A DNA stretch of 32,268 nucleotides from Burkholderiales bacterium (GTDB taxonomy: Bacteria > Pseudomonadota > Gammaproteobacteria > Burkholderiales > UBA11063). A program made the translations under genes and the position numbers. A model generated the notes under the pieces. That model was not told the DNA's origin. It saw nothing but the letters and a program-made list of their open reading frames with translations, and did no database searches. The stretch covers positions 1 to 32,268 of the forward strand of contig JAIEPY010000091.1 of assembly GCA_019748155.1 (NCBI GenBank), written 5' to 3'. The number at the start of each line of letters is the position of its first letter. The first letter of the stretch is position 1. This document shows positions 8,149 through 12,196 of the stretch, one piece after another.

Positions 8149-9378
8149 TTATTGCTTTATATTCGGAGTAATTTTTTGTTTTTTGAGGCGAAGGGCGTTA
8201 AGTTTAATAAACCCTTTAGCATCAGTTTGATCATAATCACCCAAACGATCCATACTAGCAACATCATGATCATAGAGTGAGTTTGGCGAATTTCTGCCAA
8301 GAATAATCACATTGCCTTTATACAGCGCTAAATGAACTACACCATTGATTGCCGCTATGTTTACCTGATTGGCTGCCATTAACATTTTCATTTCCGGACT
8401 GAACCAGAAACCGTTATAAATTAGTTGTGCAATTTTGGGTGCGGCGCAAGATTTAAGCAGGATAACTTCACGATCCAAGACCAGAGTTTCTAAATCCTGA
8501 TAAGCTTTATGGAGGATTGTTCCACCGGGAGTTTCATAAACACCGCGTGATTTCATTCCGACAAAGCGGCTTTCAACGATGTCAATTCTGCCAATCGCAT
8601 TGTTACCACCAATTTTATTCAGATAAGTAAATATTTCCAGTTGTGTGCCGCTGATTACTTTTTGGCTGGCGTGCTCAATGATTTTTATAGGTAGCCCATT
8701 ACTAAACTCAATACTAATTTCAAAGCTTTGATCGGGTGCATCTTGTGGCGCAAGAGTCTTTTTGAACATCTCAGCAGGTGGTGCTAATTCCGGATCTTCC
8801 AAGATACCTGCCTCATAGCTGGTATGCATTAGATTTTCATCAACACTATACGGTTTTTGTAAAGTAGAGGTAACTGGGATTCCTTGTTCAGTGGCATAAT
8901 TAAGTAAGTCAGTCCGTCCTTTAAATTGTGCCAAAAACTCGGGTTCTTTCCACGGGGCAATCACTTTAACTTCCGGCATGAATTGCATAAACACTAATTC
9001 AAAGCGGATTTGATCATTCCCTTTACCCGTTGCGCCATGTGAAATATTCTTAATCCCGTGCGCTATAGCATATTCCACCAGTTTTTTGGCAATTAGCGGA
9101 CGGGCAAGAGAAGTACCGAGTAAATAACGGTTTTCGTATAATGCACCGCTTTGCAGTGATGGATAAATATAGTCATTAACAAACTCTTCTTTGCAGTCTT
9201 CAATCACCACGGTTTTAGCACCAATTGCCAAGGCTTTGGCTTTAGCTGCCGCAAAATCTTCTTCCTGTCCAACATCAGCAATAAATGCGGTAACCTCGTA
9301 TCCTTTATTGAGTAACCATTTTAAAATTACTGAAGTATCCAAACCGCCACTGTATGCCAAAATTACTTGTTGTTGCAT
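8149..9378 (-). CDS. argG: Argininosuccinate synthase
   Basis: 409 residues. It condenses citrulline and aspartate with ATP to argininosuccinate. AYSGGLDTS at residues 8-16 is the N-type ATP pyrophosphatase loop. YENRYLLGTSLARP, SHGATGKGNDQ and DENLMHTSYEAGILE are the aspartate/citrulline-binding signatures. GMKSRGVYETPGGTIL and the LRLKK tail near the C-terminus complete the family pattern. Length and text fit the ~400-residue form shared by humans and many bacteria. AGGAG lies 6 nt before the ATG. The junction to argH upstream holds palindromic repeat copy A, and the one to carA downstream holds the 44-nt hairpin. Confidence 0.96.
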   Translation of the reverse strand: MQQQVILAYSGGLDTSVILKWLLNKGYEVTAFIADVGQEEDFAAAKAKALAIGAKTVVIEDCKEEFVNDYIYPSLQSGALYENRYLLGTSLARPLIAKKLVEYAIAHGIKNISHGATGKGNDQIRFELVFMQFMPEVKVIAPWKEPEFLAQFKGRTDLLNYATEQGIPVTSTLQKPYSVDENLMHTSYEAGILEDPELAPPAEMFKKTLAPQDAPDQSFEISIEFSNGLPIKIIEHASQKVISGTQLEIFTYLNKIGGNNAIGRIDIVESRFVGMKSRGVYETPGGTILHKAYQDLETLVLDREVILLKSCAAPKIAQLIYNGFWFSPEMKMLMAANQVNIAAINGVVHLALYKGNVIILGRNSPNSLYDHDVASMDRLGDYDQTDAKGFIKLNALRLKKQKITPNIKQ

Positions 9379-9419
9379 GATAGTCTCCTAAAAATTTAAT
9401 TTAAATATTTGTGTCTTTG

Positions 9420-9600
9420 GTTTTAGGGCTTGAGTAAACTCTACCGCTCAAAAGTTACGAATTTAAGAGTTTGTATTTCCTGAGAACTATTTTGCGAAAA
9501 ACTCGCTAACGCTCAAACAATTCGCAAAATAACGTTCTTGGCGTCAACAAACTCTAAAATTCTCCACTATTCGCTTTAAAGTTTACTCAAACCCTAAAAC
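9420..9600. repeat. Long palindromic repeat, copy A (argG-argH junction)
   Basis: Arms 9420-9440 and 9580-9600 pair at 20 of 21 positions. 9459-9474 and 9547-9562 pair at 15 of 16. 9482-9498 pairs with 9521-9539 with a short bulge. The apical loop is 9499-9520. The central 120 nt (9451-9570) align without gaps to copy B (10991-11110) with 11 differences. The outermost arms are unrelated in sequence between the copies although each copy is palindromic. It fills almost the whole gap between argG and argH in the same orientation as copy B. Confidence 0.9.
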
Positions 9601-9627
9601 AATTAAACCATTTTATACGCTAAAAAA

Positions 9628-10929
9628 TTAAAATTTAAACTGCTTTAACTCCTCTATTCGATTTTTGATAGAATCTAAACCAAGATTGCCTGTTGCGCCG
9701 AGGTGGGTTTTTGCCAAAATATTTTGCAATGGATCATTTAATCCTGAATTTTGCAAATTCGCTGCAACTTGTCCATAAGCATCGCGGAACGGCACACCTT
9801 GCACCGCAAGCTGCAAGGCATAATCGGTTGCAAATACTTCCGGGGTAAATCCCGCCAAACATTTTTCTTGGTTGGCACTAACTTGCGCCATAATGATTGC
9901 GACTACTTCCAGAGTTTGCCCAACAATATCTAAGCTATCAAATAATGGACGCTTGGTTTCCTGTAAATCGCGGTTATAGCCAGAAGGTAGCGCGCGCGAA
10001 ATTTCCATGACTTGCCAGAGATTTGCCATTACCGTAGCACTTTTGGCACGAATCAGTTCAAACGGATCAGGGTTTTTCTTATTTGGCATTAAGCTGCTAC
10101 CCGGGCAAAACTCCTGCGGTAAATTGAGATAAGCCATCTCAGGTGCGCTAAACAAAATCACGTCAGTCGCGAGTTTGGATAAATCCAGCATAATCTGACT
10201 TAGTCCATGAATAATCACACTTTCAAATTTACCGCGGCTATTATTGGCATAGAGTACATTATTTTGCATTTTGGCAAAACCAAGTAAATCACTGCATAGC
10301 TGACGGTCAATCGGTAATGATACGCCATAACTAGCGGCAGAACCAAGCGGTGATTGATCGATGAGTTTATAACTGTCAATTACGAGTGTTGCATCATCAA
10401 GCAATGATTCAAGTAAAGCACCCATCCATAAGCCCATTGATGAAGGCATCGCTTTTTGATAATGTGTTCGTCCAACATAAGGAATATTTTGGTACTTAAC
10501 CGCAAAATCATGCAAAACTTCCATAGTTGCAATTAGCTTAGCCATAATTGTCCGTAGTTCATGCTTACTATATAAGCGCAGCGCAGTTAACACCTGATCA
10601 TTACGAGAGCGTGCAGTATGAATTTTCTTACCGATGTCACCCAGCGCATTTACCAGATAATTTTCAATTGCAGTATGGATGTCTTCCTGTGAGTTTTCGA
10701 TAGTGAATTGACCATTATCAACTAGTTCAAGAATCTCACCGAGCGTTGTAACCAGCTGTTCACATTCAACTGCGCTAAGTATGCCGATTGATGAGAGCAT
10801 CTTGGCATGAGCAATACTCGCAATGCAGTCATACCGCGCAATCCGCAAATCTAATAGGGGATCATCGCCAGTCATAAAATCTTCAACTATCTGATTTAAT
10901 TGATAGCCTTTAGCCCAAAGCTTAGTCAT
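9628..10929 (-). CDS. argH: Argininosuccinate lyase
   Basis: 433 residues of the fumarase/aspartase superfamily. It splits argininosuccinate into arginine and fumarate, the last step of the pathway. TARSRNDQ at 106-113, THYQKAMPSS from 155 and the signature GSSLMPNKKNPD at 277-288 identify it; the serine of GSS is the catalytic base in the family. The THYQKAMPSS segment differs from the usual THLQxAQP text, and the protein is slightly shorter than E. coli ArgH (about 457 residues as I recall). A strong Shine-Dalgarno (AGGTGGAG) precedes the ATG. It is the only gene here flanked on both sides by copies of the long palindromic repeat. Confidence 0.95.
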   Translation of the reverse strand: MTKLWAKGYQLNQIVEDFMTGDDPLLDLRIARYDCIASIAHAKMLSSIGILSAVECEQLVTTLGEILELVDNGQFTIENSQEDIHTAIENYLVNALGDIGKKIHTARSRNDQVLTALRLYSKHELRTIMAKLIATMEVLHDFAVKYQNIPYVGRTHYQKAMPSSMGLWMGALLESLLDDATLVIDSYKLIDQSPLGSAASYGVSLPIDRQLCSDLLGFAKMQNNVLYANNSRGKFESVIIHGLSQIMLDLSKLATDVILFSAPEMAYLNLPQEFCPGSSLMPNKKNPDPFELIRAKSATVMANLWQVMEISRALPSGYNRDLQETKRPLFDSLDIVGQTLEVVAIIMAQVSANQEKCLAGFTPEVFATDYALQLAVQGVPFRDAYGQVAANLQNSGLNDPLQNILAKTHLGATGNLGLDSIKNRIEELKQFKF

Positions 10930-10964
10930 AATTTTTCTCCACCTTTTATATATTTGAATCTTTC

Positions 10965-11135
10965 ATGCTACAAAATTAATTTACCACTCGAAAGTTACGA
11001 AGCTAAGAGTTTGTATTTCCTTAGAACTATTTTGCGAAAAACTCGCTAACGCTCAGACAGTTCGCAAAATTACGTTCTTAGCGTCAACAAATTCTAAGCT
11101 TCTCCACTACTCGTTAAAAATTAATTTTGTAGCAT
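10965..11135. repeat. Long palindromic repeat, copy B (argH-argC junction)
   Basis: Outer arms 10965-10982 and 11118-11135 pair perfectly over 18 bp. The inner stem 10999-11014 with 11087-11102 and the apical stem around 11022-11038 with 11061-11079 match copy A. In the inner stem copy A has GAATTT...AAATTC and copy B has GAAGCT...AGCTTC, a double compensatory change that keeps pairing. The loop text ACTCGCTAACGCTCA is identical in both copies. It occupies nearly all of the gap between argH and argC. Confidence 0.9.
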
Positions 11136-11143
11136 AAAATTGG

Positions 11144-12196
11144 TTAAGGATAAACTGCCAAAGCGGTTAAACCTGTGGCTTCGGGTAACTGATACATCAG
11201 GTTCATATTTTGCACCGCTTGCCCAGATGCGCCTTTGAGCAGATTATCAATCACACTAACCACAACCAAATAATTAGTTCTTGGATCAAGATGTAAACTA
11301 ATCTGGCAGAAATTAGTTCCAATTACCGCTTTAACACCGCTGCGTTCCTGATTATTGAGTACAACAAAATAACTATCCTGATAATACTCGGTGTAGAGCT
11401 GGCTAATTTGCTTCAAATCATGCCTTGCATTTAATGGGCAGTAGGCAGTCACCATCAAACCCCGTGGAATCGGAATTAAATGCGGTGTAAACTGAATCAT
11501 CAGTTCTTTTCTTGCCAGTTTGCCAAGCTCCTGCTCAATTTCGGGGGTATGGCGATGAATTCCACCCACTTGGTAAGCGGTGAAATTATTACTGGTTTCA
11601 CAAAAATGAGTAGCAAGACTCAAACTCCGCCCGGCACCTGATACCCCTGATTTGGCATCAATGATAATTGGTGCGGCAGATAAATTCAGCAATTTATTTT
11701 TAAGTAGTGGTGCTAGAGCCAATAACGTTGCAGTTGGATAACAACCCGGGTTTGCAATCAAATTCGCGCCAGCAATTTGCTCACGATAACCAATTTCAGC
11801 TAAGCCATAAACCGCTTGAGTCAACAATGCACTATTTGCTGCGGGGTGCTGATACCATTGTTCATAAGTTTTGCCATCATTTAAACGTAAATCAGCACTC
11901 AAATCAATTACTTTGCAACTATGTTGTAATAATTCAGCAGAGATAGCAGCCGCTTTCGTATGCGGGAGTGCTAAAAAAACAATATCACTTTGCTGTGCCA
12001 ATTGCGTAAGATTCAGGCTGACAAATTGGTGCATGAGATGAGCTAAATGTGGAAAAACCTGCGTTAATTCTTGCTGTTGATAAGTTTCAGAGACCAAATG
12101 CGCCAATTCTACCTGTGGGTGAGCACTAAGTAAACGAATTAACTCCACTCCGGTGTAACCAGATGCGCCAATAATCGAGGCTTTGATTTTCTTCAT
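11144..12196 (-). CDS. argC: N-acetyl-gamma-glutamyl-phosphate reductase
   Basis: 350 residues. It reduces N-acetylglutamyl phosphate to the semialdehyde with NADPH. GASGYTG at 10-16 is the Rossmann nucleotide-binding loop. Cys152 in NPGCYPTA is the catalytic cysteine. The later HxHxPE segment (GGIHRHTPEIE) is the expected second signature. The length is that of the type 1 (long) ArgC. Its ATG overlaps the argB TGA by 4 nt, indicating translational coupling. Repeat copy B lies immediately downstream. Confidence 0.95.
   Translation of the reverse strand: MKKIKASIIGASGYTGVELIRLLSAHPQVELAHLVSETYQQQELTQVFPHLAHLMHQFVSLNLTQLAQQSDIVFLALPHTKAAAISAELLQHSCKVIDLSADLRLNDGKTYEQWYQHPAANSALLTQAVYGLAEIGYREQIAGANLIANPGCYPTATLLALAPLLKNKLLNLSAAPIIIDAKSGVSGAGRSLSLATHFCETSNNFTAYQVGGIHRHTPEIEQELGKLARKELMIQFTPHLIPIPRGLMVTAYCPLNARHDLKQISQLYTEYYQDSYFVVLNNQERSGVKAVIGTNFCQISLHLDPRTNYLVVVSVIDNLLKGASGQAVQNMNLMYQLPEATGLTALAVYP

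Follow-up and report, generated by a model that had tools for sequence, protein, structure and literature searches.

What are the two long palindromes that flank argH in a Burkholderiales bacterium, and how can they share a core when their outer arms bear no resemblance to each other? They lie in contig JAIEPY010000091.1 (assembly GCA_019748155.1), a stretch of 32,268 nucleotides (nt) that we call the window, at its full length. The minus-strand open reading frames (ORFs) of the window match the gene order argF-argJ-argB-argC-argH-argG-carA-carB-argD of a relative, genome G022 (the gene names are our own reading of the ORFs), and one long palindrome sits in each of two gaps, argC-argH (10930-11143) and argH-argG (9379-9627). 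Our best explanation, which we think is probably, if not securely, right, is that these palindromes are low-copy members of a dispersed, non-coding hairpin element that folds as a single strand of DNA or RNA and is recognised by its tip in that form.

A repeat search aligns the two copies without gaps over 139 nt at 88% identity (9442-9580 against 10982-11120), and a register table gives 11 differences between 9451-9570 and 10991-11110, the same count that a preliminary description of this DNA had given for these 120-nt cores. That description was also right that the outer arms are unrelated between the copies and yet pair within each of them, at 20/21 and 18/18 positions; compared in register, the arms of the two copies match at only 8/21 and 9/20 positions (shuffle p=0.21 and 0.13), which is no detectable similarity. 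Both copies fold far better than shuffled sequence on the arg-sense strand (z of -10.9 for copy 1 and -6.8 for copy 2) and on the opposite strand (-10.6 and -7.7), with 0/200 shuffles as good in each case. When the G022 copy is placed together with the two window copies on the structure of copy 1, 13/64 pairs have changed on both sides, against 4.6 in shuffled and 0-2 in slid controls, although this test involves three sequences only and 11 of the 13 pairs belong to the outer helix, where aligning one copy with another is arbitrary. A compensatory change from GAATTT/AAATTC to GAAGCT/AGCTTC, pointed out in the preliminary description, is indeed present, but the G022 copy breaks one of its two pairs as well as one neighbouring pair. 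Unrelated outer arms on cores that are 88% identical might have arisen if both arms were replaced together or if substitutions in pairs were rapid, which we offer only as possibilities. The tip itself is nearly mirror-symmetric (GAGCG..GCGAG) at 9498-9515 and 11038-11055 of the window, and this symmetry makes a backwards-pattern control invalid for tips with an AA loop.

Table 1. Coordinates of the hairpins, their parts and the phage tip sites; positions are those of the window unless a locus is named.
Feature	Position	Strand	Remarks
Hairpin copy 1	9420..9600	-	argH-argG gap, arg-sense strand; also in G022 at the same site
Copy 1 tip motif GTTTGAGCGTTAGCGAGTTTT	9498..9518	-	
Copy 1 outer arm, left	9420..9440	.	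20/21 with 9580-9600
Copy 1 outer arm, right	9580..9600	.	partner of 9420-9440
Hairpin copy 2	10965..11135	-	argC-argH gap; absent from G022, G007, G016 and G005
Copy 2 tip motif GTCTGAGCGTTAGCGAGTTTT	11038..11058	-	
Copy 2 outer arm, left	10965..10982	.	18/18 with 11118-11135
Copy 2 outer arm, right	11118..11135	.	partner of 10965-10982
Shared core	9442..9580	-	88% to 10982-11120 of copy 2
Phage tip sites	L304:281-301; L305:6203-6223; L188:3001-3022		

Several lines of evidence place the window hairpins in a much wider family. The hairpin tip has the form GTTTGAGCG-n(1-3)-AGCGAGTTTT, and the pattern GTTTGAGCG-N(2-4)-GCGAGTTTTT occurs in at least 116 stretches of a collection of 84,980 species, where about 6 would be expected by our own base-count estimate. 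The tip is found in several phyla, in records labelled Bacteroidales, Flavobacterium, Desulfuromonadales, Aquificaceae, Clostridium, Selenomonas and Ralstonia. The loop stretch ends in A in 115/123 matches in the fetched loci, and loops of four bases read GNNA with a pyrimidine at the third base in 25/26 cases. In folds, many matches stand at the apex of a long stem that has an asymmetric bulge about ten pairs out, and at least 35 symmetric spanning pairs are found at 71/114 scorable matches, against 29/845 random places in the same loci. The inner arms pair at 8/9 positions or better in 108/152 distinct matches, against 3.2% when arms are exchanged between elements. The information content reaches 2 bits in the tip columns next to the stem, partly owing to the pattern having fixed those columns, and is 0.09 in the first free arm column; the 55 best-paired elements have a median of 48 Watson-Crick pairs. 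On the sequences compared, these tests show a tip that is conserved in sequence and a stem that is conserved in pairing rather than in sequence. A second genus of the window's class repeats the situation at argH, with two copies that have a common core and outermost arms that are unrelated between the copies yet paired. Among 15 genomes picked for having a match, the tip count ranges from 1 to 24 per genome, and 12/18 copies of the Bacteroides genome G070 are arranged as inverted pairs with a spacing of about 200-310 nt.

Two further groups of sequences were seen in the course of this survey. Five IMG/VR contigs (L363, L366, L381, L386 and L404) carry nearly the same long hairpin with the tip on an AT-rich stem. 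A downstream hairpin of the CTTTCTTTGCTTACTTTCTTTGG type occurs in plasmids of Burkholderia, Caballeronia, Paraburkholderia, Chitinibacter and Variovorax (L229-L233), and among the five plasmid stretches folded the tip stands beside it only in Variovorax.

In the genus Ralstonia the element is a high-copy repeat. Each of 16 Ralstonia genomes yields 57-79 matches to a 1500-base query that holds two copies, counts that include flank matches and of which only some candidates were scored. We aligned 48 of the 49 copies found, omitting one of odd length, on a structure composed of a basal stem, the long hairpin and two further hairpins. Cells of the alignment are paired in 96.1% of cases against 88.8% after shuffling, double-changed cells number 274 against 91.5 shuffled and 1-26 slid, and the covariation score is 0.229 against 0.099 shuffled, with a slid maximum of 0.069 (0.073 in the three-sequence test of the window itself). 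A measure of "further pair types" did not rise above shuffles in these 48 copies (232/500). The eight inner pairs are all formed in 46/48 copies and the nine middle pairs in 44/48. One of two middle types goes with 6 inner types and the other with 8, with no inner type common to both, and block exchange within the stem was dropped as an explanation for that reason. The aligned copies show paired divergence in the Ralstonia stem, as read from sequence. The preliminary description had made its proposal depend on further copies and on covariation among homologues; copies are present elsewhere, and covariation is present in Ralstonia. Its suggestion that selection acts on pairing over sequence is likewise supported by the arm exchange test, the excess of G.U mispairs discussed below and the Ralstonia covariation.

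Comparison with close relatives suggests that the element has moved. In the host, 217 nt separate the aligned ends of argC and argH; in G022, G007, G016 and G005 the distances are 18, 14, 18 and 16 nt, and no core, arm or palindrome was found in the gap of these four relatives. Given gaps of at most 18 nt without core or arms, copy 2 is most simply read as an insertion in the host lineage, the alternative being loss in all four relatives. As for copy 1, the G022 copy lies at the same argH-argG site and its outer arms are homologous to those of copy 1. Homologous outer arms in relatives, which the preliminary description would have counted against arms derived from the flanks, are thus present at this site, and an inherited copy should have them. 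In G007 about 61 nt and in G005 about 27 nt lie between the aligned ends of these two genes, gaps too short for the element; in G016 the ends of argH and argG are about 177 nt apart, and that stretch folds weakly (-30 kcal/mol for 201 nt) without a long central hairpin. A structured mobile repeat, as had been suggested, agrees with the presence of the element in other genomes and with copy 2 as a recent insertion judged by the gaps of the relatives.

Within the host genome (G000), blastn with the core at E <= 0.1 finds two places, which are the window copies, and one in G022 at 96%. Weaker host matches comprise shorter ones up to E 1 and further GAGCG..GCGAG sites; of these, C67 and C86 were folded and neither lies at the apex of a long hairpin. 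The tip with at most 3 mismatches occurs in 6/23 genomes of the genus, and the 3-mismatch sites G000 C116 and G009 C160 do not coincide with a long hairpin. Weak core matches in G012 and G015 are hairpins that have the tip in common with the core but whose arms are unrelated to it. The G012 copy (L025:4942) lies inside a type I restriction-modification operon by Pfam, between hsdS-like and hsdR-like genes that are separated by two small ORFs. A blastn search of the core against plasmids gave no match, and against phages it gave one match of 22 bases, in a filamentous phage.

We suppose that a trans-acting factor would read the tip on a folded single strand, that the long stem would serve to present the tip to this factor, and that the element may have spread through such recognition. 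The fold of the tip-bearing strand seems to be what is kept, given that G.U mispairs outnumber A.C there: in 125 elements the stems have 233 G.U against 105 A.C (73 against 19 by elements; p=2.7e-12 by sites and 1.2e-8 by elements), and the excess is similar after dropping the inner 10 or 24 positions. The idea of the tip as an extra-stable DNA minihairpin is neither supported nor excluded by calculated energies.

A number of observations weigh against this explanation. Copies of the element are phylogenetically non-independent, and in DNA, too, a G.T mispair is better than an A.C one. Not all matches sit on long stems: 29/114 scorable matches have fewer than 25 spanning pairs, and in a stricter, first arm-pairing score only 34/115 exceed the 99th percentile of controls. 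We used spanning pairs and arm exchange in place of that score, which the asymmetric bulge of the stem makes rather uninformative. The strict tip 20-mer is rare in the window's class, occurring in 4/274 genomes (0 for the mirror control); in three of these the tip folds to the apex of a long hairpin, but in L266, over the stretch folded, it does not. Clusters of neighbouring ORFs contain no recurrent gene that can be linked to the element, the three largest (12, 12 and 10 loci) being by our own reading of an ABC-transporter type, of a sensor/regulator type and translations of the element itself. No homologue of a filamentous-phage Rep was found in 745 ORFs near family matches, a search that covered neighbouring ORFs only, and the Y1 transposase domain PF01797 is absent in 8/20 genomes searched. 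Finally, movement is deduced from presence and absence and was never observed.

Phages may bear on the nature of the factor. Two IMG/VR contigs, which their ORFs mark as filamentous phages, contain the 21-base tip of copy 1, and a Vibrio Tubulavirales record also carries it. A pattern centred on the phage sequences finds 52 stretches, 49 of them with Rep-like or morphogenesis-like homologues (the two suppliers of the queries included). The phage motif lies within a conserved intergenic block, sequences diverge right after GCGAG(T), and the loop varies as it does in the family (GTTA, GCTA, GTA and GAA). By their record names, many filamentous phages with the conserved tip block are from Vibrio, and records named CTXphi match the block region (by record name only). 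The initiator of CTXphi nicks within an apical loop of its origin (PMC4439123). By analogy, the phage block would correspond to the CTXphi-type nick hairpin, and the phage intergenic hairpin may be a replication origin. Pairing weighs against a link between phage and chromosome, as the phage motif pairs differently from the chromosomal hairpins and has no long arms. Furthermore, in a viral scan with 15 fixed bases, 80/94 scored matches (97 further loci) have no long symmetric stem, and none of the 97 loci is a filamentous phage by the queries used. Matches of 15 bases arise by chance, so the phage link relies on position and on the common variation of the loop. A specific form of our explanation, speculative and on balance unlikely, is that the hairpins serve a rolling-circle (HUH) nickase as origin-like sites in the chromosome, that their tip is a nick site related to the filamentous phage (+) origin and presented by a varying, paired stem, and that they spread across phyla as single-stranded DNA. 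The chromosomal hairpins resemble a CTXphi-type (+) origin in being hairpins and in having GTTTGAGCG-n-AGCGAG in common with the conserved phage intergenic block, but no Rep was found beside them in the 745 ORFs. Stem-loop origins of geminiviruses and circoviruses place a conserved nick loop on a stem of variable sequence, a likeness of design only.

Could the working strand instead be RNA? The element might be a transcribed RNA, a processing or stability site in the arg mRNA whose tip binds an RNA-binding protein and which perhaps spread by another route; we regard this as possible but doubtful. Both window copies are oriented with the arg operon and fold better in that orientation, and the excess of G.U over A.C in the stems would suit RNA. 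By an ORF-based rule, the upstream ORF has the same sense as the tip in 52/72 matches that have an upstream ORF. However, 17 of the gaps are convergent and 5 divergent, so that the bias is partly an avoidance of divergent gaps and does not settle RNA against DNA; between tandem genes the ratio of same to opposite sense is only 21:11 (p ~0.1 by our own estimate). The four-base loops are not of the RNA GNRA type, given their pyrimidine at the third base, inverted pairs place copies in both senses, and there is no Rfam family. We slightly favor DNA, acted on by a nicking or replication protein, given the insertion differences between relatives, the inverted pairs, the non-GNRA loops and the phage likeness, all of which is indirect evidence.

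The preliminary description had proposed that the core enters an existing palindrome or that insertion makes inverted copies of the flanks, which would account for outer arms that differ between copies yet pair, in a second genus too. One Ralstonia site (L284-L298) shows an alternation of long and short forms between related species. The tip is present in 4/15 loci, in G081, G088, G082 and G083 the outer ends of the element form a short palindrome there, and neither is present in the more distant G085, G068 and G084; these states were read in 11/15 loci. The short form is either precursor or remnant, depending on insertion or loss, and resembles the nested reading. For copy 2 the proposal fails to find support, since the argC-argH gaps of the four relatives contain neither an arm nor a palindrome, although a brief palindrome in the host lineage before copy 2 is conceivable. 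An origin of the arms in host sequence fares no better, as the outer arm of copy 2 has no homologue elsewhere in the host genome beyond short AT-rich matches; C109, considered as its source, offers one such match of 18 bases outside any palindrome and was rejected. We judge entry into palindromes or copying of flanks to be improbable, and it is still harder to see the hairpins as repetitive extragenic palindromes (REPs) or bacterial interspersed mosaic elements (BIMEs) moved by a Y1 transposase (REP-associated tyrosine transposase, RAYT), which we consider very improbable. The likeness is real in that the copies are intergenic palindromes, numerous, often in inverted pairs, and with paired changes in their stems. 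According to PMC3733652, however, REPs measure 20-40 bp, with a stem of 5-13 bp and, at one end, a GTAG or CGTC tag, whereas our elements of about 170-200 nt (170-180 in the window) are five or more times longer, and their conserved part is the tip. PF01797 is present in 12/20 genomes searched, and those without it include the host, G022, G012, G015 and the copy-rich G070 and G074. Thus, size and the presence of copies without a Y1 transposase argue that the element is not a REP, and the absence of PF01797 from the host, G070 and G074 led us to reject this transposase as the trans-acting factor.

Miniature inverted-repeat transposable elements (MITEs) are defined by the terminal repeats of a transposase family. 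The hairpin element is similar to them in being short and non-coding, in an insertion that differs between relatives and in its ability to fold, but differs in that its conserved part is the tip. Parent elements of MITEs are described in PMC10969869. Comparison of occupied and unoccupied states at argC-argH and at one Ralstonia site identified no target-site duplication.

Searches of known families returned nothing that matches the element. Rfam on 9380-11160 at E <= 5 gave three weak matches far below the gathering score, and on 16 family loci one unrelated match only. A scan for intrinsic terminators over 9300-11300 found none at the palindromes and a single site in all, inside argH, against 1.8 in shuffled sequence. 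The printed tip sequence met nothing relevant in the literature searched, which covered few subscription papers, and the downstream hairpin sequence met only virus papers, which we take as chance; searches by topic returned surveys of REPs, MITEs and stem-loops. On what was searched, the element appears new to Rfam 15 and to print, a novelty that is provisional, with the 67 new families of PMC2267715 lying outside the comparison.

If our explanation of the argH palindromes as members of a tip-recognised hairpin element is true, one repeat with a conserved tip extends across several phyla and reaches dozens of matches per genome in Ralstonia. It would then be naturally suited to studying how the two arms of a palindrome stay matched as they change, and it would make the search for a protein that reads the tip a concrete one.
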